Shown: one piece after another, positions 33,911-59,316 of the stretch
Layout of the letters: every line of letters begins with the position of its first letter
Position numbering within the stretch: position 1 is the stretch's first letter
Assembly (NCBI RefSeq): GCF_009676955.1
Contig: NZ_CP045696.1
Span: 1,681,001-1,745,000 of the forward strand
DNA from: Sodaliphilus pleomorphus
GTDB lineage: Bacteria; Bacteroidota; Bacteroidia; Bacteroidales; Muribaculaceae
DNA length: 64,000 bases
Direction: 5' to 3'
Position numbers and translations under genes: made by a program
The notes under the pieces: model-generated
What the model saw: the letters and a program-made list of their open reading frames with translations, nothing else
What the model was told of the DNA's origin: nothing
The model's database searches: none

Positions 33911-33939
33911 TTAAAAACTAACAAAAAACTCATGTGTGT

Positions 33940-36900: not shown

Positions 36901-37188
36901 AACTATGAGACAGCCAACTGGATCACCAAGGTCAACAGCCTGCGTCTGCGCTCGCTCTCGCTGAGCTACAACGTGCCTGGCGAGTGGCTGGCACAGCACA
37001 TGAAGTTTGTGAAGCGTGCATCGCTCACCGCCACTGCAACCAACCTGTTGCTCTTCACCAACTACGATGGTGATCCCGAGGTGGCTGCAGCCGGTGCTGG
37101 CCGCGGCGGCTCGTCGTCGGTGGGCTTCGACTACTGCGGTGTTCCTGCAACGTCGAGCTTCGCCTTTGGCGTGAACCTCACTTTCTAA
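33940..37188 (+). CDS. SusC/RagA-family TonB-linked outer-membrane transporter (pair 1)
   Basis: A 1082-residue outer-membrane channel that works with a SusD lipoprotein to import glycans or peptides using TonB energy. After the signal peptide (MKKQCVLLASLLLACG...) come a carboxypeptidase-D-like module (about 38-105, GEPLIGATVKVKG), the TonB-box/plug entry LDEVVVTALGIKK, the plug with NQPLFVVDGVIYDN and ASALYGSRAANGVV, and the 22-strand barrel ending in ATSSFAFGVNLTF. There is no N-terminal STN domain, so it should not signal through an anti-sigma factor. The start is ATG 33940; the in-frame GTG at 33934 is less likely. The IS lies between this gene and its promoter, so expression may be changed. 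Confidence 0.96.
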   Translation: MKKQCVLLASLLLACGLPAGLTTMSPSVGFTAMAQSHSGKVTGIVRDANGEPLIGATVKVKGTSVATATDVDGKYTIKAAPGSTLVISYIGNKPMEVPVTGSTVDVQMMSNTTNLDEVVVTALGIKKDKKALGYAVDDINSEELMKNKNTNAINSLSGKIAGVNITQSSGAAGAGSQIILRGGTSGSENRDNQPLFVVDGVIYDNSATIVGNSAFDGSMASATTSSNRVMDINPEDIENMSVLKGPAASALYGSRAANGVVIITTKKGKEGRVEINLNANYITSWVRDLPEQQKTYRRGYMEDQYDADKNYTGTVFNDFSYSSWGDRIPEGTPTYDNPGDFFKTAGVWDTNLSVSGGTKNSNFYLSGSFYDQDGVVPTTGYTKTTFRFNGEQKYKIFTFGANAAYSDARTTKTLTGAALYGSQGTGALYGVYNWSPTSDMRHYLNEDGTRYRMFGTRLDPWDETDNPYWLVNKNKMTDNTERFTGNFSVKADLASWWWVSYRMGVDSYTTEMNNRIAAGGAIKQVWQNGMLSMNSMKYRYLSTNLMSNWNKQLGDFNLNLMLGTSTDYTKIRSDYEMAWNFAISDFYSPSSTSSDYTKFKHALSRKRLVALFGEFRADWRNANFFTYTGRNDWTSTLPKDNRSYYYQSFSGSIAFTELMRESMPEWFTFGKLRASWAEVGKDTNPYETATYLWPVGTYLNGTVGVGNTWSRGNPFLKPEKTRSFEIGLETRFLQNRLKFDIAYYNNKSYNQILSPRGPQSTGYIFCSINAGDVYNKGLEISLSGTPVKTADFTWETGINAAGNRGTMKNLPKGMDIMYVTDVQYGSAKAATFSGGDFMAIAGTKWARVSDKESPYYGQLILDKNGMPTRDNGTYEVGNRESKFTGGWNNTFTYKNWSLNMLWEFRVGGDVFNGTKYATTMTGVSKFSADVRSQDLSVAGVVQTGVDKDKKPIYEPMSHTWSPDQTYAFNGVTMSGYNIIQSYYTGYYNYETANWITKVNSLRLRSLSLSYNVPGEWLAQHMKFVKRASLTATATNLLLFTNYDGDPEVAAAGAGRGGSSSVGFDYCGVPATSSFAFGVNLTF

Positions 37189-37225
37189 GTATAAACTTTA
37201 TCCAAACTGCAAAATCTCAAGATTT

Positions 37226-39103
37226 ATGAAACTATTGAAATCAATCATATTGTGTGGGCTTGGGGCAGCAGCATTGTCGCTCACCTCGTGCAACGACTGG
37301 CTCAACATCAATACCGACCCTGAGAACCCCTCGGCCGAGATTGCTGAATACTATCAGCGACTGGCTCACATTGAATTTTACACCAACGACGCCAACCAGT
37401 TTGCTGCCTGGCGCAGCAGCATGGCATGTGGCGACTGGACCCGCTATGTGAATGGTGGCACCTACTACAACATGTCGATATGGCTGCCTGGTACCGCCAT
37501 CAACACGACGCCCTACCAGTGGTGGTTTGTGGGCGCCTATGCCAACGTGCCCGACATGTACGACAAGGCTATGGCGGCCGGCAACTACCAGTATGCCGGC
37601 GTGGCCAAGGTCATCAAGGCCTATGGCATGATGCTCATGACCGACCTCTATGGCGAGATGCCCTATACCGAGGCGGGAGGCATTAATGCAATGCCGAAAT
37701 ATGACACGGGCAAGACCATCTTTATGGGCTGCATCAACGATATCGACGAGGCCATCGACCTGCTCAACAAGGGCCTCAACCAGTCGGCTACATTGCCCAA
37801 GCTCTCTGAAGGCGACTGGTGGAACGGCGGTGATGTGAACAAGTGGATCAAGCTGGCTCACCTGCTCAAGGCCCGCTGGCTCAATCACCTGATCAAGAAG
37901 GGCGAGGGTAGCTACAAGGACGGCAAGTGGGATCCCACCGCCATCCTCGCCGAGCTCGACCAGGCCATGCAGAGCAATGCCGACAACACCGTGATCAATC
38001 ACACCGATGCCAACGGTTCTACCCACGATGTGCTGGGTTGGGACGAGCCCGTCGACTACAGCCCGCTGTTCTCGGTGTGCGGCATGAATGCCGGCTACAT
38101 GGTGACCAAGATGCTCTACGACAACCTCACCAACTTTGCCGGCTACGGCGTTGAGGATCCCCGTGCCGACCACATCATTCCCTGGGCTTACTCGCACAAG
38201 AGCGCCAACAGCCCCGCCGAGATCAAGTGGGACGGCAACTGGCGCCGCTCGCTGGGTGTCGACATGCAAAGCGGCATTCAGGCTGCCGGTGGCCCGCTGC
38301 GTGCAATATATGGCGCTAACAAAGATTATGCTCACTCGGGCGACCACTGGTGGGTGCCCTCGACCAGCGAGGCTCGCTGGGGCGATACGGTGTATGTGGA
38401 GGAGACAAGCAGCTCCAAGGGCTATCATGCCAACAAGGACCTCTTCTTCCGCGCTAAGAAAAACGACGACAACTCGCGCGAGTCGGGCACCTTCTACACC
38501 CGCGTGAGTGCTCCCACCTATGTGGGTACCTATGCCGAGTGCTGCTTCATCAAGGCCGAGGTGCTCTTCCGCCAGGGCAACGCCGCTGCTGCCTACACTG
38601 CCTACAAGGAAGGTGCGAAGGCCTCGATCGAGCTCATGAACTCCAAGCTGAATGCGTGGGTGGCCGAAGATAACAGTTTGGGCAAGTGCCCGTCGTTTGC
38701 GCCCATGAGCCAGGAGGCTATCGACAACTTCCTCAACAACGGCCTGGGCACTGCCAGCGACCTCACGCTGGGCAAGATCATGACGCAGAAGCGCATCGCC
38801 CTGCTCTTCTCGATGGAGGTGTGGAACGACATGCGCCGCTACGACTACGACAGCAACATCTTCCTGGGCTGGGCCATTCCTGCACAGCACGCCCTGAGTG
38901 CCGCGGCTTTGAAGGCCATCCCCGAGGGCAAGCAATTCCGCCGCTGGATGCAGTGCTCGCACGAGCGTGACTACAACGCCGATAATCTGCAGGCCATAGG
39001 CAGCGAGGTGCCTGGAGCCAACATGGATCCCAAGGTCAAGCTGTGGAATGCTGCCGACGATGTGTGGACTATCCCCGTGTGGTGGGACAGCGACCAGCAA
39101 TGA
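37226..39103 (+). CDS. SusD/RagB-family nutrient-binding lipoprotein (pair 1)
   Basis: A 625-residue surface lipoprotein that forms the lid on its SusC partner, encoded 37 bp upstream. The signal peptide ends in lipobox SLTSC with Cys22 lipidated, followed by NDWLNINTDPENPS, the family-typical N-terminus of the SusD-like group with an NxDP motif. TPR-like helices follow: GVAKVIKAYGMMLMTDLYGEMPY (about 131-153) is the strongest signature and carries the conserved DLYG(D/E)(I/M)PY block. KIMTQKRIALLFSMEVWNDMRR near 515-536 is another family landmark. The ligand is unknown. A strong terminator closes this two-gene operon. Confidence 0.95.
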   Translation: MKLLKSIILCGLGAAALSLTSCNDWLNINTDPENPSAEIAEYYQRLAHIEFYTNDANQFAAWRSSMACGDWTRYVNGGTYYNMSIWLPGTAINTTPYQWWFVGAYANVPDMYDKAMAAGNYQYAGVAKVIKAYGMMLMTDLYGEMPYTEAGGINAMPKYDTGKTIFMGCINDIDEAIDLLNKGLNQSATLPKLSEGDWWNGGDVNKWIKLAHLLKARWLNHLIKKGEGSYKDGKWDPTAILAELDQAMQSNADNTVINHTDANGSTHDVLGWDEPVDYSPLFSVCGMNAGYMVTKMLYDNLTNFAGYGVEDPRADHIIPWAYSHKSANSPAEIKWDGNWRRSLGVDMQSGIQAAGGPLRAIYGANKDYAHSGDHWWVPSTSEARWGDTVYVEETSSSKGYHANKDLFFRAKKNDDNSRESGTFYTRVSAPTYVGTYAECCFIKAEVLFRQGNAAAAYTAYKEGAKASIELMNSKLNAWVAEDNSLGKCPSFAPMSQEAIDNFLNNGLGTASDLTLGKIMTQKRIALLFSMEVWNDMRRYDYDSNIFLGWAIPAQHALSAAALKAIPEGKQFRRWMQCSHERDYNADNLQAIGSEVPGANMDPKVKLWNAADDVWTIPVWWDSDQQ

Positions 39104-39132
39104 GATTGAAACCCTTATAGACTGCTATAGCA

Positions 39133-39180
39133 CGGCCGCCGGGCTCTCGAGTGTGAGACCCGGCGGCCGTTGTCTTTTTC
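39133..39180 (+). terminator. intrinsic terminator after susCD pair 1
   Basis: CGGCCGCCGGG (39133-39143) pairs perfectly with CCCGGCGGCCG (39159-39169), an 11-bp all-GC/CG stem followed by TTGTCTTTTT. It separates the two SusCD operons. Confidence 0.88.
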
Positions 39181-39290
39181 CCCCACCCGCTTTTTTCCCC
39201 GCCCCGCGGCCTCAAGGCTGGAGGGGGAGTGTCGTGGCCTCTCTGCACGAAAGGCAAGTAGCGCAGAAATCAAAAAAAACAGTAGAAATA

Positions 39291-39322
39291 TTTTGCAATG
39301 TTAAAATAAATTCACACATTTG
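39291..39322 (+). promoter_or_regulatory. promoter of susC-2 operon
   Basis: TTTTG (39291-39295), 19 nt, CACATTTG (39315-39322). It is conserved with the region 32176-32209 ahead of the IS in front of susC-1. Confidence 0.68.
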
Positions 39323-39409
39323 CAGAAGATTAATTAAAAAATCAAAACATGGTGGGCCCTAATTGTGCAGGGTTGTAATGATAATTAGAAACGCCTATTG
39401 TTTTCGATA

Positions 39410-39464
39410 AACCTCAAAATAAGTTTATTTAATTAAAAACTAAAAAAAACTCATGTGTGTATGA
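39410..39464 (+). repeat. leader segment shared by both susC genes
   Basis: Starts with the 20 bases AACCTCAAAATAAGTTTATT, identical at 32286-32305. It continues as AATTAAAAACTAA and CTCATGTGTGTATGAAAAA, matched at 33908-33945 on the other side of the IS. It includes a three-codon ORF (ATG TGT GTA TGA) at 39453-39464 whose stop overlaps the susC-2 ATG. Confidence 0.8.
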
Positions 39465-42400
39465 AAAAACATTGTGTCTTGCTCACTGCGCTATTCATCG
39501 CATGTGGTGCCCCCGTGGGGATGAATGTGTTTCCCGACGTGGGCTTCACAGCCGAAGCGCAAAGCAACAAAGTGACAGGTGTTGTGAAAGACGCCGATGG
39601 TGAGCCGCTCATAGGTGTCACAATCAAGGTGAAGGGTACCAACAAGGTGAGTGTCACCGACATCAACGGTCGTTACTCGATAACAGCGCCTGCTGGCAGC
39701 ACCCTGGTATTTTCCTATATAGGTCTTAAGCCCAAGGAAGTGCCTGCTGCCCAAGCCAGCACTGTGGTGATGGAAGCCGGCAGCAACCAGCTCAACGAGG
39801 TGGTGGTGACGGGCGAGTATGGCATGAAACGCGTGGAGCGGGCTGTGGGCTCGTCGGTGCAAAACGTGAAGGCTGTCGACATCGAGGCCTCGGGCCGCAC
39901 CGACTTTATCTCGGCCTTGCAAGGCCGTGTGTCGGGCTTGAGCGTGACCAACTCGTCGGGAGCCCCGGGCGCATCGACCACGGTGGTGCTGCGCAGTGCC
40001 ACATCGCTCTCGGGCAACAACCAGCCGCTCTATGTGATCGACGGTATCCCGATGAACAACACCTCGTTTAACCCCACTGCCGAGTTTGCCACCGACGACT
40101 CGTCGACAGGCCTGAGTGTGCGCTCGACCGACTTCTCGTCGCGCGGCAACGACTTCAATCCCGAGGACATCGAGAGTGTGACGGTGCTCAAGGGTGCCGC
40201 CGCCGCGGCCCTCTATGGCAGCGATGCCTCCAACGGCGCCATCGTGATCACCACCAAGAAGGGCCATGCCGGCAAGACCACGCTGGCCTACAGCAACCAG
40301 ATATCGTGGTCGAAGGCCTATGGCTGGCCCGAGGTGCAGGACAAGTACACCAACGGTGCCTACAACTCGACCAACTACTACTACACCAACCACTACGGCG
40401 CCATGTATGATCACAGCGTGCCCTACTACGACAACGCTGCGGCAGTGGTGCAGACGGGTTTCATGCACCGTCACAACTTCAGCGCCGAGGGTGGCTCGGA
40501 GAAGATGAGCTTCCGCGCCGGCCTGTCGATGTTTGACCAGAGCGGTGTGGTCAAGACCACGTCGCTCAAGCGCACCAACGTGACCGTTGCCGGCCGTGTG
40601 CAGGTGGCCAAGTGGCTGCAGGTAGAGGGCAATGCCCAATATGTGCACTCGAGCAACCGCAAGGCCCTGCGCGGCGCCGCCGGCCCCATTGCCTTGAGCT
40701 ACAAGTGGCCCAACATGGACGACATGCGCAACTACATGGCCCTCGACGGCAGCCACATGCGCTATCCCCAGTATTACACCGACACCGACCTGCTCAACCC
40801 GCTTTTCGGCCTGTACAAGAACCTGAACTTCGACGTGACCGACCGCATCATTTCCAACATTACGGCCAATTTCACCCCCATCGATCACGTGTATGTGCGT
40901 GCGCTCTTTGGCTGGGACGCCTCGGCCTCGACCTATGAGAGCGGCACTCACCCCTACTACCGCTCGGCCAATCAGGAGAGCGACGACTCCAACAACTCGG
41001 GTAGCTACAACATAGCCAAGTATGACACCTACGACCCGTCGTTCAACGTGCTGGCCGGCTACAACAACAAGTTCTTCGACGAGAAGCTCACCTTCGGTCT
41101 GCAATTTGGCTACCACCAGCAGCAGAACGGCGTGAAGCGCCTGTCGTCGTACGGGTCCAATTTCAAGGTCATCGATTTCTACTCGATCAACAACTGCACC
41201 GAGTCGACGGTATCCTCCAAGAAGCGCTCCACCAAGCGCCGCGTCCAGGCCGTGTCGGGGCAGCTCGAGCTGGGATACAAGCAGATGGCCTATGTCACCT
41301 TCCGCTTCCGCAACGACTGGTCGTCGACGCTGCCAGCCAACAACCGCAGCTACTTCTACCCGGCAGTCGAGGCCTCGTTTATCCCCACCGAGTTCAAGGG
41401 GCTCAACGACCTGGGGTGGCTGAGCTACTTGAAGCTGCGCGGCGCCGTGGCCCGCGTGGGCAAGGACGCCCCTGTGCTCAGCATCAATCCCGAGCTTGAG
41501 GTCACCGGCCTCTATGGCGGTGGCTACAAGTACGGCTTCACTGGTCCCAACCGCGACCTCAAGCCCGAGATGACAACCAGTGTCGAGGTGGGCGCCGAGG
41601 CCCGTTTCCTGAACGACCGCATCAATGCCGACTTCACGTGGTTCCACACCCACTGCGCCGATCAGATTGTGACCGGCTTCCGCATGAGCTATGCCACCGG
41701 CTTTATTCTCAACAACATGAATGTGGGCACTTTCAACACCTGGGGCTGGGAAGGCCACATCGACGCCGACATCATCAGGCACGGCGACCTGGTATGGAAC
41801 TTCGGGCTCAATGCCTCCCACACCACGTCGAAGGTGGTCGACCTGCCTGCCAACCTGAGCGAGTACTACAATGCCTACACGTGGAACTATGGCAACGTGC
41901 GCAACGGCATCATGAAGGGGCACCCCATCACCACCATCACCGGTATTGCCTACAAGCGCAACGATGCCGGCCAGGTGCTCATCGATCCCACCTCGGGACT
42001 GCCCATGCTCGACGACAGCGGCAAGTGGAAAGTGCTGGGCGACCGCGAGCCCAAGCTGCGCTTTGGCTTCAGCACCTATGTGCGCTACAAGAGCTGGCGC
42101 TTGAGCGCCCTGTTCCAGGGTCGCTACCATGCCGATGTGTACAATGCCACCATGCGCGAGATGATGGCCCGCGGCTTGAGCTGGGAGAGCGTCGACATGC
42201 GCGAGAGCGGCTCGTTTATCTTCAACGGCGTGCTCAAGGACGGCAAGGAGAACACCGCCACGCCCACGGTCAACACCATCGCTGTCGACATGGGTCACTA
42301 TGGTTCCACCACCTATGCCGGCAACAACGAGGACTGGATCGAGCACAAGATCAACTACCTGCGCTGCCAGGAGCTGCGTCTGGCCTATGTGGTGCCGCAG

Positions 42401-42613
42401 AAGTGGCTCAAGCAGGTGACCCGCAACACGATGAATAGCTGCACGCTCTATGTCTCGGCCAACGACCTGTTTACCATCACCAACTATACTGGCATCGATG
42501 TGGCTGGCAACACCATGAGTGCGGCAGCCGGCGGCACCGGCGGCGAGGGCTACGACTACTGGTCGCTGCCCAGCCCGCGCACCTACTCGGTGGGCCTGTC
42601 GGTTACATTCTAA
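39461..42613 (+). CDS. SusC/RagA-family TonB-linked outer-membrane transporter (pair 2)
   Basis: A 1050-residue outer-membrane import channel. The signal peptide MKKHCVLLTALFIACGAP closely resembles that of SusC-1. Modules: CarboxypepD-like domain (about 38-105, GEPLIGVTIKVKG), plug entry LNEVVVTGEYGMKR, plug with NQPLYVIDGIPMNN and AAAALYGSDASNGAIVITT, and barrel ending SPRTYSVGLSVTF. The barrel diverges strongly from SusC-1, so a different ligand is likely. There is no STN domain. ATG 39461 is preferred over the in-frame GTG at 39455. It heads an operon with SusD-2 (32 bp later) and a third lipoprotein gene. Confidence 0.96.
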   Translation: MKKHCVLLTALFIACGAPVGMNVFPDVGFTAEAQSNKVTGVVKDADGEPLIGVTIKVKGTNKVSVTDINGRYSITAPAGSTLVFSYIGLKPKEVPAAQASTVVMEAGSNQLNEVVVTGEYGMKRVERAVGSSVQNVKAVDIEASGRTDFISALQGRVSGLSVTNSSGAPGASTTVVLRSATSLSGNNQPLYVIDGIPMNNTSFNPTAEFATDDSSTGLSVRSTDFSSRGNDFNPEDIESVTVLKGAAAAALYGSDASNGAIVITTKKGHAGKTTLAYSNQISWSKAYGWPEVQDKYTNGAYNSTNYYYTNHYGAMYDHSVPYYDNAAAVVQTGFMHRHNFSAEGGSEKMSFRAGLSMFDQSGVVKTTSLKRTNVTVAGRVQVAKWLQVEGNAQYVHSSNRKALRGAAGPIALSYKWPNMDDMRNYMALDGSHMRYPQYYTDTDLLNPLFGLYKNLNFDVTDRIISNITANFTPIDHVYVRALFGWDASASTYESGTHPYYRSANQESDDSNNSGSYNIAKYDTYDPSFNVLAGYNNKFFDEKLTFGLQFGYHQQQNGVKRLSSYGSNFKVIDFYSINNCTESTVSSKKRSTKRRVQAVSGQLELGYKQMAYVTFRFRNDWSSTLPANNRSYFYPAVEASFIPTEFKGLNDLGWLSYLKLRGAVARVGKDAPVLSINPELEVTGLYGGGYKYGFTGPNRDLKPEMTTSVEVGAEARFLNDRINADFTWFHTHCADQIVTGFRMSYATGFILNNMNVGTFNTWGWEGHIDADIIRHGDLVWNFGLNASHTTSKVVDLPANLSEYYNAYTWNYGNVRNGIMKGHPITTITGIAYKRNDAGQVLIDPTSGLPMLDDSGKWKVLGDREPKLRFGFSTYVRYKSWRLSALFQGRYHADVYNATMREMMARGLSWESVDMRESGSFIFNGVLKDGKENTATPTVNTIAVDMGHYGSTTYAGNNEDWIEHKINYLRCQELRLAYVVPQKWLKQVTRNTMNSCTLYVSANDLFTITNYTGIDVAGNTMSAAAGGTGGEGYDYWSLPSPRTYSVGLSVTF

Positions 42614-42645
42614 ATTACTCACAGTTTTAAATAGTAAAAAAATAT

Positions 42646-44520
42646 ATGAGAAAATATATATATATCCTGTTGACGACGGTGGTTGCCTCGCTCGGCGCGA
42701 CGAGTTGCGACGATTACCTCGACGTGAACAAGAATACCGATGCTCCCGACTATGTCGACGGTTACCTGTACCTGGCAGGCATCGAGCAAAGTTACCAGGA
42801 GCTCTACTACGACTTGCGTGCTATCGCGCCGCTCACCCAGATGATGGGCACCTCGAGCTACGTCAGCTATGCCCTGCACTACTATAGCCGCAACAGCGAT
42901 GCTGCCGGCCAGGTGTGGCGCATGCTCTACTGGAGCCAGGGCATGAACCTGGAGAACATGATCAACCAGAGTCTCGAGGCCCAGAACTGGACGCTCGCCG
43001 GCATGGGCTATATCATGAAGGCCTACTCGTGGGACGTGGCCACCAAGCAACATGGCGAGATGCCTATGAAGGAAGCCTACGAGGCTGGCCGCCTGTCGCA
43101 CGACTACGACTATCAGCCCGAAATCTACGCCCAGATACGCGAGTGGGCCAAGACAGGTATCGAGCTGCTGCAGCGCGAGGACAACTCGGTGTATGGCAGC
43201 AAGATCAGCAACAACGACTACATCTACCACGGCGACAAGGACAAGTGGATAAAGTTTGGCTATGCCGTGATTGTGCGCAACCTGGCCTCGCTCACCTGCA
43301 AACGCGACTTCAAGGCCAAGTACTACGACGAGTTTATCGACGCTTGCTCCAAGGCCTTTGCCGGCAATGCCGACAACGCCACGGTTGAGGTGGGCGGCGG
43401 CGGCGCCGATGCCTCGGAGTCGTCCTATAACAATTTCTGGGGCCCCTACCGCAGCAACTTGAGCTGGAGCTACTTCCAGCACGACTATGCCGTCGAGGTG
43501 TTTACCGGCACGGTGCCCTATTATGATGCCAATGGCGACAAGGTGCCCGTCGACAGCAACACCTATTGCCCCTATGAGCTGGCCAGCAAGCAGGTGATAT
43601 GCGACACGCTCGAGGAGGCTGGCCACATGGATCCCCGCGTGTTTGCCAAGCTGGCTACAGTCGACAAGGACAGCCTGGCCACTATCGACGACTGGATGAC
43701 GCTGCGCAAGCTGCACTACTATGGCGGCGGCTTCACCGGCTACAGCGGTCCCATCGGGTCGGCGCCGTCGTTCTTCGGCCGCAACCATGCCAGCAACGAC
43801 GATGCCGAGGGCAACGGACGCTGGCTTTACCGCAACGATGCGCCCTACATCCTGTCGACCTATGCCGAGATGCTCTTCGACAAGGCCGAGGTGCAGTATA
43901 AGTATGGCGACAAGACCGAGGCCTTTGAGACCTGGAAGCAAGCCATAGCAGCCGACATGGAGTTCACTGCCAGCTACCTGGTGCCGGGCGTGGCCATTCA
44001 GAACTCGGGCACCGGCGCCCACCAGGGCGACAAGATCACTGCAGCCACCTTCAAGAAGATTGCCCAGGAGTATCTCGACGGCCCCTATGTGGCCGGCCTG
44101 CCCATGAGCGACTTCGACCTGAGCCACATCATGATGCAGAAGTTTGTGGCCCTCTATCCCTGGGGGGGCGGCGAGGTGTGGGTCGACCAGCGCAAGTACA
44201 TGTACGACATCGCCTACAGCGGCGACTATCCCAGCAACGGCAACGGTTGGGACAAGACCACGCTCAACCAGAAGAGCGACGACGACCCCACCAAGGTGTA
44301 CAAGGGCTACTACCTGTATCCAGCCCAGGTGCAGGGCCGCAAGGGGTCGTACAACGACGACAACAACGGCTCGCCTTGCTTCAGGCTGCGCCCGCGCTAC
44401 AACTCCGAGTACATGTGGAACCTGCCCAGCCTGCAGGCCCTGCGCCCCATTGCCGGCGATGCCAAGGACTACCAGTGCTCGATCCCGTGGTTTGCCTATC
44501 CGGGCGACATGCCGCAGTGA
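42646..44520 (+). CDS. SusD/RagB-family nutrient-binding lipoprotein (pair 2)
   Basis: A 624-residue lipoprotein, partner of SusC-2. The signal peptide ends GATSC (Cys21) and the mature start CDDYLDVNKNTDAPDYV fits the SusD-like group. MGYIMKAYSWDVATKQHGEMPMKEA (about 124-148) corresponds to the DxYGxxP block seen in SusD-1, here altered to Q-H-G-E-M-P. The acidic residues after the lipidated Cys fit the surface-export signal of Bacteroidetes lipoproteins. It is most likely to bind an oligosaccharide or peptide and deliver it to the SusC-2 channel. The ligand is not predictable from sequence. Confidence 0.94.
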   Translation: MRKYIYILLTTVVASLGATSCDDYLDVNKNTDAPDYVDGYLYLAGIEQSYQELYYDLRAIAPLTQMMGTSSYVSYALHYYSRNSDAAGQVWRMLYWSQGMNLENMINQSLEAQNWTLAGMGYIMKAYSWDVATKQHGEMPMKEAYEAGRLSHDYDYQPEIYAQIREWAKTGIELLQREDNSVYGSKISNNDYIYHGDKDKWIKFGYAVIVRNLASLTCKRDFKAKYYDEFIDACSKAFAGNADNATVEVGGGGADASESSYNNFWGPYRSNLSWSYFQHDYAVEVFTGTVPYYDANGDKVPVDSNTYCPYELASKQVICDTLEEAGHMDPRVFAKLATVDKDSLATIDDWMTLRKLHYYGGGFTGYSGPIGSAPSFFGRNHASNDDAEGNGRWLYRNDAPYILSTYAEMLFDKAEVQYKYGDKTEAFETWKQAIAADMEFTASYLVPGVAIQNSGTGAHQGDKITAATFKKIAQEYLDGPYVAGLPMSDFDLSHIMMQKFVALYPWGGGEVWVDQRKYMYDIAYSGDYPSNGNGWDKTTLNQKSDDDPTKVYKGYYLYPAQVQGRKGSYNDDNNGSPCFRLRPRYNSEYMWNLPSLQALRPIAGDAKDYQCSIPWFAYPGDMPQ

Positions 44521-47219: not shown

Positions 47220-47480
47220 ATGATCATAAGCGAACGCAATTTCCGCATAGTCGTGTTTCTCACCATGCTGCCCGTGGTGCTGTGGCCCGTGATGATCACT
47301 CACGTCGACCACTTCGACACCGCCCTCGAGCGCTTTGTGCTGCTCATGATGCCCGTCTTTGCTGTGGGCTGCGGCTTCCTGGCGCGGCGGGTGTACCGCG
47401 AGCGCCCCGAGGTGGCCTGGATGCTGGTGGGCATCGTGTGGCTCAGCTATGTGTCGTTCACCTGCCTGGTCTACATGTAA
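47220..47480 (+). CDS. small three-helix membrane protein
   Basis: An 86-residue protein almost entirely made of three hydrophobic segments: about 9-27 (VVFLTMLPVVLWPVMI), about 38-57 (RFVLLMMPVFAVGCGFLA) and about 65-85 (VAWMLVGIVWLSYVSFTCLVY). No family recognised. The stop TAA shares its last base with the ATG of the next gene (TAATG), which implies translational coupling to the LtaS-like transferase and possibly a complex with it. It lies 52 bp after the GH3 gene. Confidence 0.75.
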   Translation: MIISERNFRIVVFLTMLPVVLWPVMITHVDHFDTALERFVLLMMPVFAVGCGFLARRVYRERPEVAWMLVGIVWLSYVSFTCLVYM

Positions 47481-49453
47481 TGGCTACAATGAATATTTCA
47501 CGCTTCAAGTACACCCCCGTGGGCGCGGCCCTGATCAACATGGTCACGGCCCTGGTGGTCTACATGCTCTCGCGAGTGGTGTTTTTCCTGGTCAACTGGA
47601 GCACCTTTGCCCCCTACATGTCGTGGAAGCTGGCCGGCAGCATGCTGCACGGCGGCTTGGTCTTCGACACCTCGGCCTTGCTCTATATCAACGCGCTTTA
47701 TCTCGCGCTCACGCTCCTGCCCGTGCCCTGCAAGGAGAAGCCCGGCTTCTACCAGGGGCTCAAGTGGCTCTATGTGCTGACCAACAGCCTGGGCCTGGCG
47801 GCCAACCTCATCGACTCGGTCTATGTGCAGTACACGGGGCGCCGCACCACGATGTCGGTCTTCAGCGAGTTTGCCCACGAGGACAACATCGCCTCGATCA
47901 TCTTCGGCGAGACGTGCAACCACTGGTACCTGCTGCTGGTGATGGTGATGATGGTTGCCATCTTGTGGATATGCTTTGTGAAGCCCAGAGAGGGCGTGTG
48001 GGGCGCTCGATGGCACTACTATGTGTTGCAGGTCGTTTCGATGCTCGTTGTCGCCCCAGCGGCCATTATTGGGGTGCGTGGCAGCGCCACAGCCGGCACC
48101 AAGCCTATCACCATCAACAATGCCAACGCCTTTGTCAACCGCCCCATCGAGGGCACGGTGGTGCTCAACACGCCGTTCACCCTGATACGCAGCATCGGGC
48201 ACAAGGCGTTCGCCGACCCTCATTACATGCCGCAGGAGGCGATGAGGCGCGCCTTTGACCCAGTTGTCGTGCCGCGGCCCGACGAGCGCTCACAGGGCCG
48301 CAAAAACGTGGTCATTTTCATTGTAGAGAGCATGGGCAAGGAGTATATAGGCGCCTACAACCGTCACTTGGAAGGTGGGCGCTACAAGGGCTACATGCCC
48401 TTTGTCGACTCGCTGGTGAAGCGCAGTCTCACTTTCCAGTACAGCTATGCCAACGGTCGCAAGTCGATGGACGCCATGCCCAGCGTGCTCTCGGGGCTGC
48501 CCATGATGGTGGAGCCGTTTTTCCTCACGCCGGCCACGCTCAACGACGTGCAGGGCGTGCCGAGCATGCTCAAGCCGCTGGGCTACTACAGCTGTTTTTT
48601 CCATGGCGGGCACAATATCTCGATGGGCTTCAACGCTTTTGCCCGCGACATAGGCTACGACCGCTATGTGGGCCTCAATGAGTATTGCCGTTCCAAGAAT
48701 CCGGCCTATCACGGCATGGACGACTTCGACGGCAAGTGGGCCATCTACGACGAGCCGTTTCTGCAATTTATGCTCGACAACGTCAACCAGTTCAGGCAGC
48801 CCTTTGTGGCCACGGTGTTCACGGCCTCGTCGCACGAGCCGTTCCACATTCCCGACAAGTACAAGGGGGTGTTCAAGGAGGGCAAGCTGCCCATCTACAA
48901 GTCGATAGGCTACACCGACATGTCGCTGCGCCGCTTCTTTGAGCGTGCCAGCCGCCAGCCGTGGTACCGCAACACCATCTTTGTGCTGGTGGCCGACCAT
49001 GCGAGCCTGAGCGAGCATGCCGAGTACAAGACCGACCTGGGGCACTACAGCGTGCCCATCATCTTCTTCACGCCCGACGGCAGCCTGAAGCCGGCCATGC
49101 GCACCGACGTGATAGCGCAGCAGACCGACATCATGCCCACGCTCATGCACCTGCTGGGCTACGACAAGCCCTATGTGGCCTTTGGGTGCGACCTGCTCTC
49201 GACGCCGCCGCGCGACACCTGGGCCTTCAACTACAACAATGGCGTGTTCCAGTACATGAGGGGCGACTACATGATGCAATTCGACGGGCAGCGCGTCACG
49301 GCCATGTACCGGTTTAAGACCGATCCCTTGCTCAGGCACAACCTGGCGGGCAGGGTCAAGGAGCAGGCTGCCATGGAGGTGACCCTGAAAGCGCTCATAC
49401 AGCAATACATGCAGCGCATGAATCACAACGAGCTCGTGGTGCGTCGCCGCTGA
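47480..49453 (+). CDS. LtaS/MdoB-like membrane phosphotransferase (alkaline-phosphatase fold)
   Basis: A 657-residue inner-membrane protein with about five N-terminal helices (to about residue 200) and a periplasmic sulfatase-fold domain. Catalytic landmarks: FIVESMGKEY (metal-binding Glu, about 280), GRKSMDAMPS (candidate nucleophile Ser329 by codon count, where LtaS has Thr), HGGHNISMG, SSHEPFHIP and VADHASLSE. Members move phosphoglycerol or phosphoethanolamine from phospholipids to glycans or lipids in the periplasm. True teichoic acid synthesis is not expected in Bacteroidales, so a head-group or glycan modification is more likely. The start overlaps the preceding stop. It is convergent with the GT4 gene, leaving a 2-bp gap. 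Confidence 0.9.
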   Translation: MATMNISRFKYTPVGAALINMVTALVVYMLSRVVFFLVNWSTFAPYMSWKLAGSMLHGGLVFDTSALLYINALYLALTLLPVPCKEKPGFYQGLKWLYVLTNSLGLAANLIDSVYVQYTGRRTTMSVFSEFAHEDNIASIIFGETCNHWYLLLVMVMMVAILWICFVKPREGVWGARWHYYVLQVVSMLVVAPAAIIGVRGSATAGTKPITINNANAFVNRPIEGTVVLNTPFTLIRSIGHKAFADPHYMPQEAMRRAFDPVVVPRPDERSQGRKNVVIFIVESMGKEYIGAYNRHLEGGRYKGYMPFVDSLVKRSLTFQYSYANGRKSMDAMPSVLSGLPMMVEPFFLTPATLNDVQGVPSMLKPLGYYSCFFHGGHNISMGFNAFARDIGYDRYVGLNEYCRSKNPAYHGMDDFDGKWAIYDEPFLQFMLDNVNQFRQPFVATVFTASSHEPFHIPDKYKGVFKEGKLPIYKSIGYTDMSLRRFFERASRQPWYRNTIFVLVADHASLSEHAEYKTDLGHYSVPIIFFTPDGSLKPAMRTDVIAQQTDIMPTLMHLLGYDKPYVAFGCDLLSTPPRDTWAFNYNNGVFQYMRGDYMMQFDGQRVTAMYRFKTDPLLRHNLAGRVKEQAAMEVTLKALIQQYMQRMNHNELVVRRR

Positions 49454-52368: not shown

Positions 52369-54042
52369 CTATTTAACGATCATTTTTTTCTCGCCGTTGA
52401 TGATGTAGAAGCCGGGCTGCAAGTCGACGGTCGACGAGTAGCGGCGGCCTGTGAGGTCGTAGATGCCGCTTGGCTTGGTGGCCTTGTGGGTCGTGACGCT
52501 TGTGACGGCCGTGTTAGGCATTTGCCACCAGGCGATGTCGCTGGCTTTCTCGTTGCTGCCATCGTTGTAGACCAGCTGCACGCCCATGCGGGAGAAGCCG
52601 TTCTGCTGGATGTAGGTGAAATGCATGTTCTCGCTCACTTTAAACCAATCGTTGTCGATAAAGTTGATGGGTATCTCGGTGAGATCTTGCGATAGGGTGG
52701 GGTAGGCTGCGCTGGTGAAGGTGAACAGCGTGCTGTCGAGGTATATCCTGAAGTACAGGTGATTGGGATCGAGTATCGTGCTGTCTTCGGCAAATGGGCT
52801 CACGGTGAAGGCGAGGCTGTAGTCGCCCTCTTGCTGCCAGAAGTCGCCCACGTTGACGATGACGGGGGTGTGGGGTGTGGCGGCCTTGGCGGTGAATGGC
52901 GACATGACGGGCTCGATGAGCCTTGTGTCGGTCGACAGGAATTGCCCGAGGTTGGTGTTGATGACCAGCACGCGTGGTGTAGAGAGCTGGCGGGTAGCGT
53001 CATTATAGTCGAGAGAGAGTTCGCCGCCCAACTTGTAGGAGGTGTAGTTGCCCCACGGGCTTGAGGCCACTGTGGTGTCGGCTGCCATGATGTAGTAGAG
53101 GTAGGCATGTTTCACGGCCATGACCTGGCCGTAGGGGAAGGTGACGGTTTTCTTGTCGGGTGCAATGTTGCCCACCACCCAGGTGTCGGCAGGCAGGCTG
53201 CTGCTTAAGCCCGAGATGTAGAGCTGGTTGCCGCTTGTGCCCACGTTCACCCAGTTCACGTCTTTGGTGTTCACGCCGTCGCTGTAGGGGCGTGTGCTCA
53301 CCACGCTGTAGCGCTCGGTAGTGAGGCCGGCGGGCGGCGTGACGATAGTTACGTCTTTGGGCCGCATCACTGTATTTACGTCGGTGAAGTTTGCCCATTT
53401 CCCATTGCTGTCGCCTCCGGCATAGAAGGCTGCAAGGCCCTCGCCTGGCGTTGCGGCATTGTCGAGCACGATGGCGGTGTCGGTCACTGTGTAGGTGATG
53501 GGTTTGCCGTCGGGCACGTAGGTGTAGGTAGTGTCGGTGCCGTTTACCACCATGTTGAGCTTGGCATGCTTGAGCTGCATGTAGCTTTGCGCATATTGGT
53601 CGTAGGCGATGTACTGGTCGGGGTCGATGGTGAGCTTCTTGCCGTCGGTGCTTAATGTGCCTTTCACCCAGTTGTCGTTGTTGACCATGGTGAGTATGTT
53701 TCTCAGCCACACCTTGCCGTTGCTGCCTGTGACCATTTCGGCCACAAAGCTGCTCTGGTCCATGGCATAGAGACCGTCCCAGTCGCTGTAGACGGCACTG
53801 CCGGTGCGGCTGTAGATCTTGTAGTTGCCCGCCGGCTGCTCGCTGATGATGCTGGTATCGGCACCGGCCTTGTAGCTGGCAAAGCGTTGCACTTGCTGCT
53901 TGCTTGCGATTTTGAATGGAAGTTTCACCGACTGCTTGAGCAGTTGCTCACGAGTGTCGGCCTGGGCTATCTCGGTTTGTGCTGTTGCCGTGACGCCACT
54001 TGCTGCGAGTGCAGCCAATAGAAAAAAGTAATAATGCTTCAT
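52369..54042 (-). CDS. secreted protein of unknown function with T9SS sorting domain
   Basis: A 557-residue exported protein (signal peptide ending GVTATAQ at about 22). It has no domain I can name. The body is beta-rich, with repeated clusters such as YMQLKHAKLNMVVNGTDTTYTYVPDGKP and VMAVKHAYLYYIMAADTTV, hinting at an internal duplication. The last 45 residues carry SGIYDLTGRRYSSTVDLQPGFYIINGEKKMIVK-like features (here only the Y-D-L-x-G-R and PGFYIINGEKKMIVK parts are cited), a typical type-A sorting signal. A -7 element TAACTTTG is on the minus strand at 54152-54159. Probably surface-attached; the partner is unknown. Confidence 0.78.
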   Translation of the reverse strand: MKHYYFFLLAALAASGVTATAQTEIAQADTREQLLKQSVKLPFKIASKQQVQRFASYKAGADTSIISEQPAGNYKIYSRTGSAVYSDWDGLYAMDQSSFVAEMVTGSNGKVWLRNILTMVNNDNWVKGTLSTDGKKLTIDPDQYIAYDQYAQSYMQLKHAKLNMVVNGTDTTYTYVPDGKPITYTVTDTAIVLDNAATPGEGLAAFYAGGDSNGKWANFTDVNTVMRPKDVTIVTPPAGLTTERYSVVSTRPYSDGVNTKDVNWVNVGTSGNQLYISGLSSSLPADTWVVGNIAPDKKTVTFPYGQVMAVKHAYLYYIMAADTTVASSPWGNYTSYKLGGELSLDYNDATRQLSTPRVLVINTNLGQFLSTDTRLIEPVMSPFTAKAATPHTPVIVNVGDFWQQEGDYSLAFTVSPFAEDSTILDPNHLYFRIYLDSTLFTFTSAAYPTLSQDLTEIPINFIDNDWFKVSENMHFTYIQQNGFSRMGVQLVYNDGSNEKASDIAWWQMPNTAVTSVTTHKATKPSGIYDLTGRRYSSTVDLQPGFYIINGEKKMIVK

Positions 54043-54885: not shown

Positions 54886-56763
54886 ATGATCTACGATTTC
54901 GATGTGATAGTGATTGGTGCCGGCCATGCTGGCTGCGAGGCCGCATGTGCCGCAGCCAACTTGGGCTCGACGACCTTGCTCATAACTATCGATATGAACA
55001 AAATTGCCCAGATGAGTTGCAATCCCGCCGTGGGTGGCATTGCCAAGGGGCAGATTGTGAGGGAGATAGATGCACTTGGCGGGCAAATGGGCATCGTTAC
55101 CGACCGCTCGAGCCTGCAATTTCGCATGCTCAACCGGTCGAAGGGCCCAGCCATGTGGAGTCCGCGCGCCCAGGCCGACCGCATGCGCTTTATCATGAAC
55201 TGGCGCCACACGATTGAGAACACCCCCAACCTGTACATGTGGCAGGACAGTGCCGTGAAACTCGACATTGCCAACGGCGAGGTGCACGGCGTGACCACGG
55301 CCCTTGGGGTCGACTTCACCGCCAAGGCTGTTGTACTCACCGCCGGCACCTTCCTCAACGGGCTCATGCATGTGGGCCCGGTAAAAATGCAGGGTGGGAG
55401 AGTGGCCGAGCCGGCGTCGCACGGCATCACCGAGCAGCTGCGTGCGCTGGGCTTTGCCACCAGCCGCATGAAGACGGGCACCCCTGTGCGTCTCGACGCC
55501 CGCACCATCGATTTCTCGCAGGCTACGGTGCAAGAGGGCGACCACGACTTTCATCACTTCTCGTTCCTGCCCACTGTGCACAGCGAGCTGCGCCAGCGGC
55601 CGTGCTACATCGTGTGGACCAACCGTCAGGTGCACGACGTGTTGCGCGCCGGCCTGCCCGAGTCGCCCTTGTTCAACGGCCAGATTCAGTCGGTAGGTCC
55701 CCGTTACTGCCCCAGCATCGAGACCAAGCTGGTCACCTTCCCCGACAAGGATGCCCACCAGCTCTTTATCGAACCCGAGGGCGAGAGCACCAATGAAATG
55801 TATCTCAACGGCTTCTCGTCGTCGATGCCGTGGCGCATCCAGCTCGACGCATTGGGCAAGATACCTGCCCTTGCACACGTGCAGGCCTACCGCCCAGGCT
55901 ATGCCATCGAGTACGACTACTTCGACCCCACGCAACTCAAGCACAACCTTGAGACCAAGCTGGTGAAGAATCTCTTCTTTGCCGGGCAGGTGAATGGCAC
56001 CACGGGCTATGAGGAAGCAGCCGGGCAGGGCCTTGTGGCCGGCATCAATGCCCACCAGAATGCCGTGGGTGCAGCCCCCTTTGTACTGGCCCGCGACGAG
56101 GCCTACATAGGTGTGCTCATCGACGACCTTGTGACCAAGGGTGTCGACGAGCCCTACCGCATGTTTACCAGCCGTGCCGAGCACCGCATATTGCTGCGGC
56201 AGGACGATGCCGACTTGCGCCTCACGCCACGCAGCTATGCCCTGGGGCTCGCCTCGCGCGAGCGCTACTTGCTCATGCAGTCGAAGTGGCGCCAGGTCGA
56301 CAGCCTTGTCGACTTTGCCCGCGACTACAGCGTGAAGGCCTCTCTCGTCAATCCCAGTCTTGAGGCCCGTGGGCTGCAACCCTTGCGCCAAGGCACCAAA
56401 CTCTACGAACTGATACTGCGCCCGCAACTCGGCATCAACCTGCTTGCCACTATGATTCCTGAGTTGCAAACACGCCTCGACGCGCTTGAGGATACCCGTC
56501 TTGAGGAAATTGTGGAGGCTGCCGAAATCAGAATTAAGTATCATGGCTACATTGAGCGTGAGCAACTCATCGCTCAGAAGATAGGCCGCCTCGAGCATGT
56601 GAAGATTAAGGGAAAATTTGATTACTCCTCGCTGCACGCCCTCTCGACCGAGGCTCGCCAGAAGCTGGAGCGCATCGACCCCGAGACCGTGGGACAGGCC
56701 AGCCGCATCCCTGGCATTTCGCCGAGCGACATCAATATATTGCTTTTACTGTTAGGAAGATAG
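54886..56763 (+). CDS. mnmG: tRNA uridine-5-carboxymethylaminomethyl modification enzyme MnmG (GidA)
   Basis: A 625-residue FAD enzyme which, with MnmE, installs the cmnm5 group on U34 of several tRNAs. The FAD-binding Rossmann motif is VIVIGAGHAGCEAA (about 6-19). Family blocks include MSCNPAVGGIAKGQ (with the catalytic Cys), MKTGTPVRLD, GQVNGTTGYEEAAGQG (about 366-381) and MFTSRAEHRILLRQDDADLRLT. The C-terminal helical domain that contacts MnmE/tRNA is complete (SRIPGISPSDINILLLLL). The length is standard. The gene is frequently near the replication origin, which agrees with the parS site 8 bp after its stop. Confidence 0.97.
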   Translation: MIYDFDVIVIGAGHAGCEAACAAANLGSTTLLITIDMNKIAQMSCNPAVGGIAKGQIVREIDALGGQMGIVTDRSSLQFRMLNRSKGPAMWSPRAQADRMRFIMNWRHTIENTPNLYMWQDSAVKLDIANGEVHGVTTALGVDFTAKAVVLTAGTFLNGLMHVGPVKMQGGRVAEPASHGITEQLRALGFATSRMKTGTPVRLDARTIDFSQATVQEGDHDFHHFSFLPTVHSELRQRPCYIVWTNRQVHDVLRAGLPESPLFNGQIQSVGPRYCPSIETKLVTFPDKDAHQLFIEPEGESTNEMYLNGFSSSMPWRIQLDALGKIPALAHVQAYRPGYAIEYDYFDPTQLKHNLETKLVKNLFFAGQVNGTTGYEEAAGQGLVAGINAHQNAVGAAPFVLARDEAYIGVLIDDLVTKGVDEPYRMFTSRAEHRILLRQDDADLRLTPRSYALGLASRERYLLMQSKWRQVDSLVDFARDYSVKASLVNPSLEARGLQPLRQGTKLYELILRPQLGINLLATMIPELQTRLDALEDTRLEEIVEAAEIRIKYHGYIEREQLIAQKIGRLEHVKIKGKFDYSSLHALSTEARQKLERIDPETVGQASRIPGISPSDINILLLLLGR

Positions 56764-56771
56764 AAGCATGT

Positions 56772-56787
56772 TGTTTCACGTGGAACA
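56772..56787. promoter_or_regulatory. parS: parS chromosome-partition site (ParB-binding)
   Basis: TGTTTCACGTGGAACA is the exact reverse complement of the well-known Bacillus parS TGTTCCACGTGAAACA, and one base from the perfect palindrome. ParB spreads from such sites and recruits SMC, with ParA moving the origin region. It lies 8 bp after mnmG and about 128 bp before apt, outside any gene. Confidence 0.85.
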
Positions 56788-56914
56788 AATCCTTATTGTG
56801 CAACAATAGGTGGCAGCGGCCGCCGCCAGCCTGCTTGCAGGGCCGATGGGGCAGGGGTGCTGCCAGCCGCCACATAACATAGGAAACAAAACCAAACTTA
56901 AAACTCGAAATATA

Positions 56915-57451
56915 ATGAACAAAGAAGAAATTGAAAAAGTGAAGGCCGTTGTGCGCAATGTGCCCGATTTTCCAGAACCTGGAATACAATTCAAAGACTT
57001 GACCACGCTGTTTAAGAATCCTGCCGCCCTGGGCATCGTGCGCCAGGCCATGGTCGACCTGTATCGCGACAAGGGCGTGACCAAGGTTGTGGGCATCGAG
57101 GCTCGCGGCTTCATAGGCGGCGCCATTCTGGCAGCCGACCTCGACGCCGGCTTTGTGCCGCTGCGCAAACCTGGCAAACTGCCTGCCGAGACCATCAAGA
57201 AATCCTATGCCAAGGAGTATGGCACCGACACTATCGAGATACACCGCGACGCCATCACCCCCGACGATGTTGTGGTCTTGCACGACGACCTGCTGGCCAC
57301 GGGCGGCACCATGATGGCCGCCTACGAGCTCGTGAAGGCGATGAACCCCAAGAAGATTTATCTCAATTTTATATGCGGCCTCACCGCCTTGCACGGCCGC
57401 GACGTGTTTCCCAAGGATGTGGAGGTGACCACACTCTTCGACTTCGACTGA
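56915..57451 (+). CDS. apt: adenine phosphoribosyltransferase
   Basis: A 178-residue cytoplasmic enzyme converting adenine and PRPP to AMP (purine salvage). The PRPP-binding motif VVVLHDDLLATGGTMMAA is at about 111-128, with the two adjacent Asp residues that bind ribose. VRNVPDFPEPGIQFKDLTTL near 10-29 and GIEARGFIGGAI near 58-69 are classic Apt blocks. The start ATG 56915 (MNKEEIEKV) is preferred; the frame extending upstream runs through GC-rich non-coding DNA past the parS site. The gap to uvrC is 38 bp. Confidence 0.95.
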   Translation: MNKEEIEKVKAVVRNVPDFPEPGIQFKDLTTLFKNPAALGIVRQAMVDLYRDKGVTKVVGIEARGFIGGAILAADLDAGFVPLRKPGKLPAETIKKSYAKEYGTDTIEIHRDAITPDDVVVLHDDLLATGGTMMAAYELVKAMNPKKIYLNFICGLTALHGRDVFPKDVEVTTLFDFD

Positions 57452-57489: not shown

Positions 57490-59316
57490 ATGATAGAATT
57501 GCGTCCTGAACTCAAGGCTAAGTTGCAGAACCTGCCGTCAAGCCCTGGCGTGTATCGCTATCTCGACAAGACGGGCAAGGTGATCTATGTGGGCAAGGCC
57601 AAAAACCTGCACCGGCGCGTGAACTCCTATTTCAACCGCGTGCACCCGGTGCGGCGCACCAACATGCTCGTGCACCACATATGGGACCTCGTGACCGTTG
57701 TGGTCAACACCGAGGAGGAGGCCCTCGACCTGGAAAACAGCCTCATCAAGCAGTATCAGCCCCACTACAACGTGCTGCTCAAGGACGACAAGAGCTACCC
57801 GTGGATATGTGTCACCAAGGAGCCCTATCCGCGGGTGTACATGTCGCGCGAGAAGCCCAACCGTGCAGCCCGCTTCTACGGGCCTTATCCCAAGGTTGAG
57901 GTGGCGCGCGCCCTGATAGGCACCATAAGAGAAATTTTCCCGATTCGTTCGTGTCGTTACAACCTGACGCCCGAGTCGATACAATCGGGCAAATTCCGTC
58001 TGTGTCTCAAGTATCATCTCAAGAGTTGCCCAGGGTGTTGCAAGGGCTATATTTCGGTAGAGGACTACGGCAAATACATCGATGAAATCAAGCAAATATT
58101 GAATGGCGACACCAAGCAGGTGAGCGACTACCTGATGGGCGAAATGCAGCGGTTGTCGCGTGAACTGAAATTTGAAGAGGCCAACGAGCTCAAACGCCGT
58201 TACCTGCTCATCGAGAAATATCGTGCAAAGTCGGTGATTGTGAACCCCTCGATACACAACATCGATGTGTTCACGATATTGCGCGACGACACGGCGGCCT
58301 ATGTCAACTTCATCTATGTGCGCAACGGCAGTGTGGTGCAGTGTCTCACCCTGGAGTACAAGCTGGTCGATGCCGACAGCGACGAGACCGACGCCGAGCT
58401 CATGTCGACGGCCATGCGCGAGATACACGAGCGGTTCAAGGACCGCTACGACAAGGAGCGCGTGCGCGAGACACTGGTCAATGTCGTCCCCGAGTATCCG
58501 CTCGAGGGCACCGACTATATCGTGCCCCAGCGCGGCGACAAGAAGAAACTGCTCGACATCTCGCTCAAAAATGCCGAGCAATACCGCGTCGACAAGTACA
58601 AGCTCATGGAGAAGCTCAACCCCGAGCAGCGCGTGACGCGCACGCTCACGCGCATGCAGCGTGACTTGCACCTGACCGAGCTGCCGCGCCACATCGAGTG
58701 CTTCGACAATTCCAACATAGGCGGCACCAGTGCGGTGGCCTCGTGCGTGGTGTTTCGCGACGCCAAGCCCGCCAAGCGGGAGTATCGCAGCTTCAACATC
58801 AAGACCGTTGAGGGCCCCGACGACTATGCCTCGATGCGCGAGGTGCTCACGCGCCGCTACAGCCGCTTGCTCGACGAGGGGCAGGAGTTGCCCCAGCTCG
58901 TGGTGCTCGACGGCGGCAAGGGCCAGCTCAGCGCCGCTGTGCAGGTGCTCGACGAGTTGGGCCTGCGCGGCCGCATTGCAGCCATAGGCATTGCCAAGCG
59001 CATGAACGAGATCTTCTTTCCGGGCGACAGCGTGCCGCTCTATATCGACCTCAACGGCGAAACGATAAAGGTGATACAGCACTTGCGCGACGAGGCTCAC
59101 CGCTTTGGTATCGCGCATCATCGCAACAAGCGCAGCAAGTCGCAGATACATAGCGAGCTCGACGATATTGCGGGCATTGGGCCGAAGTCAAAGACGCTGT
59201 TGCTCAAGCACTTCAAGTCGCTCAAACGACTGCGCGAGGCCACGGTCGAGGAGGTTGCAGCCGTGGTGGGCGCCAAGCGGGCCCAGGCCTTGAAGCAGGC
59301 CTTGCAGTCCAAGTGA
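57490..59316 (+). CDS. uvrC: excinuclease ABC subunit C
   Basis: A 608-residue dual-incision nuclease of nucleotide-excision repair. The N-terminal GIY-YIG nuclease (PGVYRYLDKTGKVIYVGKAKN, about 19-39) makes the 3' cut. The UVR motif that binds UvrB is near 215-250 (LKFEEANELKRRYLL). The RNase-H-like domain for the 5' cut begins near FDNSNIGGTSAVASCVVF with its Asp residues, and LVVLDGGKGQLSAAVQVL is the diagnostic block. Two helix-hairpin-helix motifs finish the protein (DDIAGIGPKSKTLLLKHF; EEVAAVVGAKRAQALKQA). ATG 57490 is chosen from homology; no Shine-Dalgarno is needed in this group. Confidence 0.96.
   Translation: MIELRPELKAKLQNLPSSPGVYRYLDKTGKVIYVGKAKNLHRRVNSYFNRVHPVRRTNMLVHHIWDLVTVVVNTEEEALDLENSLIKQYQPHYNVLLKDDKSYPWICVTKEPYPRVYMSREKPNRAARFYGPYPKVEVARALIGTIREIFPIRSCRYNLTPESIQSGKFRLCLKYHLKSCPGCCKGYISVEDYGKYIDEIKQILNGDTKQVSDYLMGEMQRLSRELKFEEANELKRRYLLIEKYRAKSVIVNPSIHNIDVFTILRDDTAAYVNFIYVRNGSVVQCLTLEYKLVDADSDETDAELMSTAMREIHERFKDRYDKERVRETLVNVVPEYPLEGTDYIVPQRGDKKKLLDISLKNAEQYRVDKYKLMEKLNPEQRVTRTLTRMQRDLHLTELPRHIECFDNSNIGGTSAVASCVVFRDAKPAKREYRSFNIKTVEGPDDYASMREVLTRRYSRLLDEGQELPQLVVLDGGKGQLSAAVQVLDELGLRGRIAAIGIAKRMNEIFFPGDSVPLYIDLNGETIKVIQHLRDEAHRFGIAHHRNKRSKSQIHSELDDIAGIGPKSKTLLLKHFKSLKRLREATVEEVAAVVGAKRAQALKQALQSK

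Follow-up and report, generated by a model that had tools for sequence, protein, structure and literature searches.

Why should a chromosome that begins its deposited record at dnaA carry a perfect centromere-like palindrome almost half a genome away, and on which side of the replication cycle does that palindrome lie? The question arises from the stretch of 64,000 nucleotides analysed here (the window), which covers bases 1681001-1745000 of genome G000, a single contig of 3,340,670 bases. At window positions 56772..56787 (genome 1737772-1737787) lies the 16-mer TGTTTCACGTGGAACA, a palindrome to which no strand is assigned and which reads TGTTCCACGTGAAACA on the reverse strand, a form that we take to fit the Bacillus parS consensus. 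In ParABS systems, ParB loads at parS and spreads from it, and ParA segregates the resulting complex. Judging from sequence, we consider it highly probable (about 0.94) that this 16-mer is the single parS site of the chromosome, namely the centromere of a chromosomal ParABS system.

The palindrome and its probable cognate proteins

The match to parS is exact, and within the window no other place comes as close as three mismatches (one match per strand), while 100 shuffles of the same sequence gave a mean of 0.47 matches at this threshold. When the whole genome was searched with TGTTYCACGTGRAACA, the site between mnmG and apt was the sole place at 0-1 mismatch. Three further places appeared at two mismatches, and they represent background, since the reversed control pattern found nine places at up to two. 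The palindrome is thus present in few and unscattered copies (1 place in 3.34 Mb) and not in the even scatter that would speak against a centromere. As a simple estimate, 4 sequences in 4^16 lead one to expect ~0.00006 fortuitous matches per window and ~0.003 per genome.

The site was also correctly described as intergenic and 8 bp behind mnmG. The mnmG (gidA) gene runs on the plus strand from 54886 to 56763 (TIGR00136, 777 bits vs a cut-off of 525) and is followed by an intergenic region, read in the sequence at 56764..56914, which holds the palindrome. The gene for adenine phosphoribosyltransferase, apt, then starts with ATG at 56915 and extends to 57451 on the plus strand (TIGR01090 and NF002636 of NCBIfam, both above cut-off), followed by uvrC at 57490..59316, also plus (TIGR00194), which is next in the recurring order mnmG-parS-apt-uvrC. 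A gene for D-aminoacyl-tRNA deacylase completes the set of plus-strand neighbours. Elsewhere in the window, a DDE transposase gene (32479-33768) adjoins two TonB-receptor/SusD pairs (33934-44520) that likely form a nutrient-uptake locus. A sulfatase-domain protein at 47282-49453 resembles lipoteichoic acid synthase, though far under the cut-off of that family; a 1702-aa frame at 24119-29227 has a weak GLUG-motif as its sole match, and a putative 557-aa frame at 52369-54042 has no Pfam match.

A palindrome in a short intergenic spot, 8 bp past a stop codon and upstream of apt, might be read as the operator of a local transcription factor, or as part of the mnmG terminator or the apt promoter, its likeness to parS being incidental. 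We regard this as very improbable. A terminator or RNA element at the 3' end of mnmG found no support, for the stretch 56755-56860 folds no better than its shuffles (z +0.84) and a simple scan of 56500-57100 detected neither a promoter nor a terminator on the plus strand. Moreover, an exact match has the low chance per genome given above, and in 21 of 29 other loci of the class the same 16 bp lie 5' of mnmG, often in clusters.

The proteins that a parS site requires are encoded at ~1.373 Mb, ~365 kb from the palindrome. The parB gene (L020:12156-13034, minus strand) encodes a product with the Pfam domains ParB_N, HTH_ParB and ParB_C, the closest solved sequences to which are ParB and Spo0J; the adjoining parA gene (L020:13138-13950, minus strand) encodes an AAA_31 protein (Pfam), as expected of the ParA partner in a parS system. 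Absence of a ParB with a CTP-binding domain would have spoken against the original prediction, but the ParB translation, read by eye, contains both GERRxRA and ENxQR, which are motifs of CTP type. A comparison with Caulobacter ParB at 10 contact or specificity positions found 7 equal (Q162, G170, K171, R173, N178, G201 and R204) and three different (K172, F179 and K184); position 172, K here, is S in Caulobacter, where it contacts parS. At genome 2168225-2168749 (L006; 2.168 Mb), a 547-aa frame encodes a second protein that passes the ParB cut-off of TIGR00180 and possibly comes from a mobile element.

The combination of R173 and G201 is described as the specificity pair of parS type (PMC7383237), and it has a bearing on a further alternative, that the palindrome is a Noc-type nucleoid-occlusion binding site (NBS). 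Noc is indeed related to ParB and their sites are only two bases apart (PMC7383237). Yet NBS deviates from parS at positions 1 and 6 (PMC7383237), and the site here has the exact parS pattern; the protein has R and G at 173 and 201, not the Q and R of Noc; and NBS is reported to be scattered over the chromosome (PMC4331003), unlike the single site of this genome. Hence, although the two systems are related in both protein and site, the residues and the site found here are of the ParB-parS type, and we give the NBS alternative the least credence of all. Exact sequence, single copy, conservation among relatives (see below) and the parS-type residues of ParB together support the predicted nucleation site.

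Replication origin, terminus and dnaA

The dnaA gene lies at genome 73-1425 (L009). On a circular contig it would be ~1.60 Mb away from parS, which stands at 52% of the record and is thus nearly antipodal to it. The clustering of sites around dnaA that the original prediction anticipated therefore does not occur. With dnaA starting at base 73 of the record, one could suppose that the parS-like site sits near the terminus, either as a relic or with some function there. Three kinds of evidence weigh against this supposition, which we find hardly credible: the directions of the rRNA operons, the sign and switch of the GC3 skew and an oriC-like element all place the origin on the parS side.

The 16S genes of the four rRNA operons lie at 1.05 (-), 1.50 (-), 2.37 (+) and 3.16 Mb (+), so that the operons diverge from the interval of 1.50-2.37 Mb and converge over the dnaA region. 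GC skew gave no information until it was corrected for strand, since coding strands are rich in C at third codon positions and this strong effect masks the raw minimum. After removal of the coding-strand effect, a genome-wide fit (771 genes in 1.10 Mb of sampled sequence) placed the GC3 switches at 1.58-1.62 Mb and ~0.1 Mb and the AT3 switches at ~1.64 Mb and 3.26-3.32 Mb, the plus strand being richer in G and T from 1.6 to 3.3 Mb. Such enrichment in G and T is expected of a leading strand. The combined skew, taken over a stretch of 505 kb (314 genes), switched at ~1.622-1.631 Mb, with AT3 alone at 1.6305 Mb and GC3 alone flat over 1.62-1.67 Mb. A switch next to parS was worse than the best one by 7.4 (GC3), 29 (AT3) and 32 (combined) log-likelihood units in this stretch; the corresponding deficits in the genome-wide fit were 18 (GC3) and 40 (AT3). 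The strand-corrected switch is ~110 kb away from parS, and consequently the site marks the origin side rather than oriC itself.

A candidate for oriC is found close to the switch, in the form of an AT-rich intergenic element with two facing DnaA-type boxes (L152:1211-1807, that is, genome 1621211-1621807). Of 30 further genomes from the genus, 17 yielded relatives of this element in a DNA search, and these are flanked by nadA and/or a SpoU methylase gene (the 10 neighbouring frames scanned in 7 loci comprise 5 NadA and 5 SpoU, and both flanks were identified in 3 loci). A profile built from 11 congeners, with the element's own sequence left out, was run over 222 sequences (3.03 Mb); at E 1e-3 it matched the element's own place (L152, overlapping L185), L065 and 8 leuS-upstream stretches of other family members, with no further matches among the 222. 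None of the 5 loci scanned against Rfam gave a match to the element. We regard this conserved element as the candidate oriC.

Other ways of locating the origin were less rewarding. Counts of TTATCCACA boxes alone are weak, since a density of 3 boxes per 900 bp is also attained at three more places in 1.1 Mb. The idea of leuS as a fixed neighbour of oriC was abandoned: the mean column identity of 12 leuS-upstream stretches (11 relatives plus our own) is 40%, and in the stretches of 22 relatives none had more than 2 DnaA boxes (up to 1 mismatch) in the last 900 bp. In 8 of these 22 stretches the later profile did detect the element, at ~1.0-1.5 kb from where leuS begins and beyond a gene that is presumably nadA. 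In the congener G102 a distance of 4.9 kb separates the candidate oriC from parS, and in six further congeners (G386, G373, G385, G370, G379 and G384) the 13-20-kb stretch fetched around the element contained no parS.

Because skew, rRNA operon direction and the conserved oriC-like element agree on ~1.62 Mb, dnaA is the wrong landmark in this chromosome. We infer an oriC near 1.6215 Mb, at a distance of 116 kb or 3.5% of the genome from parS, and a dnaA gene in the vicinity of the replication terminus, roughly half a chromosome away from this candidate origin. The original prediction that the window is near oriC thus stands insofar as parS is origin-proximal, on the origin side, at 116 kb from the inferred oriC and away from the terminus; on a strict reading, the skew switch not being at parS counts against it.

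In two relatives, too, the origin inferred from skew is near parS. That of G049, at 2.925-2.95 Mb, spans its parS site (2.932 Mb). In G073, AT3 puts it at 1.375 Mb and GC3 at 1.45-1.475 Mb, and parS is at 1.420 Mb; shifting the origin onto parS itself costs 6 (GC3) and 28 (AT3) units there. Shifting it to dnaA costs 29 to 119 log-likelihood units in these two genomes, which again disfavours a terminus location for parS, as do the rRNA directions in G049, G073 and G099, all agreeing with an origin on the parS side. The 16S search of G113 gave no match. The six 16S genes in the record of B. fragilis are all found to one side of parS, each directed away from it.

Searches for leuS and dnaA covered 25 genomes of the family, 18 of which have a listed parS place. 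The sites of parS and leuS share a contig in 11 of the 18, at 12-150 kb from each other (distances biased downward by short contigs, and from related genomes), and are on separate contigs in 7. The dnaA gene and parS share a contig in 7 of the 18, with distances of 0.37 Mb in G082, 0.50 in G007, 0.64 in G073, 0.90 in G113 and 1.03 in G099; the value for G049 is 2.25 Mb along the contig (~1.06 if closed), and that of our own genome is the ~1.60 Mb on the circle given above. On contig C1 of G073, the AAA region of the DnaA profile also matches 25 frames, each of 262 aa, weakly and to a nearly equal degree; these frames are probably IS21-type helper genes.

Linkage of the site to mnmG among relatives

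How general is the position of parS behind mnmG? All 118 genomes of the family that were searched have the site with up to 1 mismatch. It is exact in 114 of them (a single copy in 104, two or three copies in 10), and the other 4 have a single 1-mismatch site each, located 3' of mnmG. The site has mnmG within ~65 bp in 29 of the 30 family loci listed; the exception is L056 (genome G024), where, on a short contig, an exact match falls within uvrC and away from mnmG.

A wider comparison was based on 80 MnmG loci, a non-random set of best-scoring relatives from named records that are nearly all from Bacteroidota, mostly Bacteroidales, with one titled Limnohabitans; the nearest are uncultured, largely rumen Bacteroidales, some titled Muribaculaceae. 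A site with up to 1 mismatch occurs no more than 150 bp 3' of the mnmG stop in 70 of these loci (50 exact, 20 with one mismatch), at a median distance of 8 bp and within 20 bp in 52 of the 70; the remaining 10 loci have no such site in this interval. The control searches found none with the reversed pattern (0/80) or on the 3' side of uvrC (0/60); the 3' side of apt has a site in 13 of 51 loci, these being second sites, and the 5' side of mnmG in 6 of 80. The bases flanking the 16 carry no more than 0.9 bit each in the aligned loci, indicating that the 16-bp site has been kept rather than the whole spacer; the near-invariant columns inside the 16-mer are partly due to how the sites were selected.

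At the level of the phylum, a search limited to exact matches found the site in 183 of 247 genomes and not in the other 64, which include both genomes from another family of the same order. Among the 29 new loci listed from this search, all from the same class, 22 have mnmG inside the 1.5-kb flank, with sites 5' of the gene in 21, often clustered, and 3' in one (L287), and the other 7 have no mnmG in this flank, which is shorter than mnmG and would miss sites on the far side of the gene. Two sites exactly, spaced by 1.90-1.96 kb, occur in 9 listed genomes of the phylum, while G200 has the same spacing plus a third site; this spacing fits sites on both sides of mnmG. A genome of Paludibacteraceae has three exact parS sites ~2-3 kb 3' of uvrC (L073:11423-12708), none adjoining mnmG, and the parS cluster appears to have moved there.

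What is unusual, then, is the mnmG-linked position of parS across much of the sampled Bacteroidota. Livny et al. 2007 is reportedly the main survey of parS. None of the titles and beginnings of abstracts searched links parS to mnmG in Bacteroidota, and an earlier description is possible.

Proposed segregation from a single site, and known systems

In mechanistic terms, the ParB encoded ~365 kb away would recognise the palindrome and, by analogy with known ParABS systems, would be expected to load at it as a CTP-dependent clamp and then to spread over mnmG, apt and their neighbours. ParA would then move the ParB complex, and the origin side would thereby be the first to segregate. For function, what would count is the origin-proximal position of parS, at 116 kb from the candidate oriC, and not proximity to dnaA. 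A search with PF02463 (SMC_N), the single profile tried, gave 10 matches in the genome, the longest frame having no more than 742 aa; presumably they include RecN- and RecF-sized frames, and no full-length SMC was found with this profile. This outcome agrees with a study of OMM12 gut bacteria, whose two Bacteroidetes are stated to have yielded no known condensin (PMC10197239).

Could mnmG and parS then form a module in its own right? We advance this only tentatively, at somewhat below even odds: the pair would be a position-locked centromere module of Bacteroidota that kept to the oriC side as dnaA and parAB were relocated (dnaA to the terminus here), with parS 3' of mnmG in Bacteroidales and mostly 5' in the other Bacteroidia seen, and that works without SMC-ScpAB, one 16-bp site plus ParA, or an unknown condensin, doing the whole job. 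The genome would offer a natural instance of a chromosome segregated from one parS, apparently without known SMC. In practical terms, calling the origin by dnaA would mislead in the two relatives checked by skew and, by half a genome, here, and parS beside mnmG provides a simple landmark of the origin side, even in fragmented assemblies, that is useful for coverage-based estimates of growth rate.

The OMM12 study, which includes Muribaculum intestinale and Bacteroides caecimuris, called ori by parS and reported that origin and dnaA do not always coincide (PMC10197239), so that their decoupling is known in kind. Its Hi-C data show arm alignment in B. caecimuris and none in M. intestinale, no condensin having been found in either (PMC10197239). 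The passages compared here make no mention of mnmG, of an oriC element or of a fixed position across the phylum (PMC10197239). With respect to the ParABS systems of B. subtilis and Caulobacter, the differences are that no full-length SMC was found here (PF02463 only), that there is a single site, that parAB lies 365 kb off and that the origin is far from dnaA. The likenesses are the 16-bp palindrome, a ParB with R173 and G201, an adjacent ParA and a location on the origin side. In kind, therefore, this parS is ordinary, chromosomal ParABS being known; what is noteworthy is its mnmG-linked position, together with an origin opposite dnaA.
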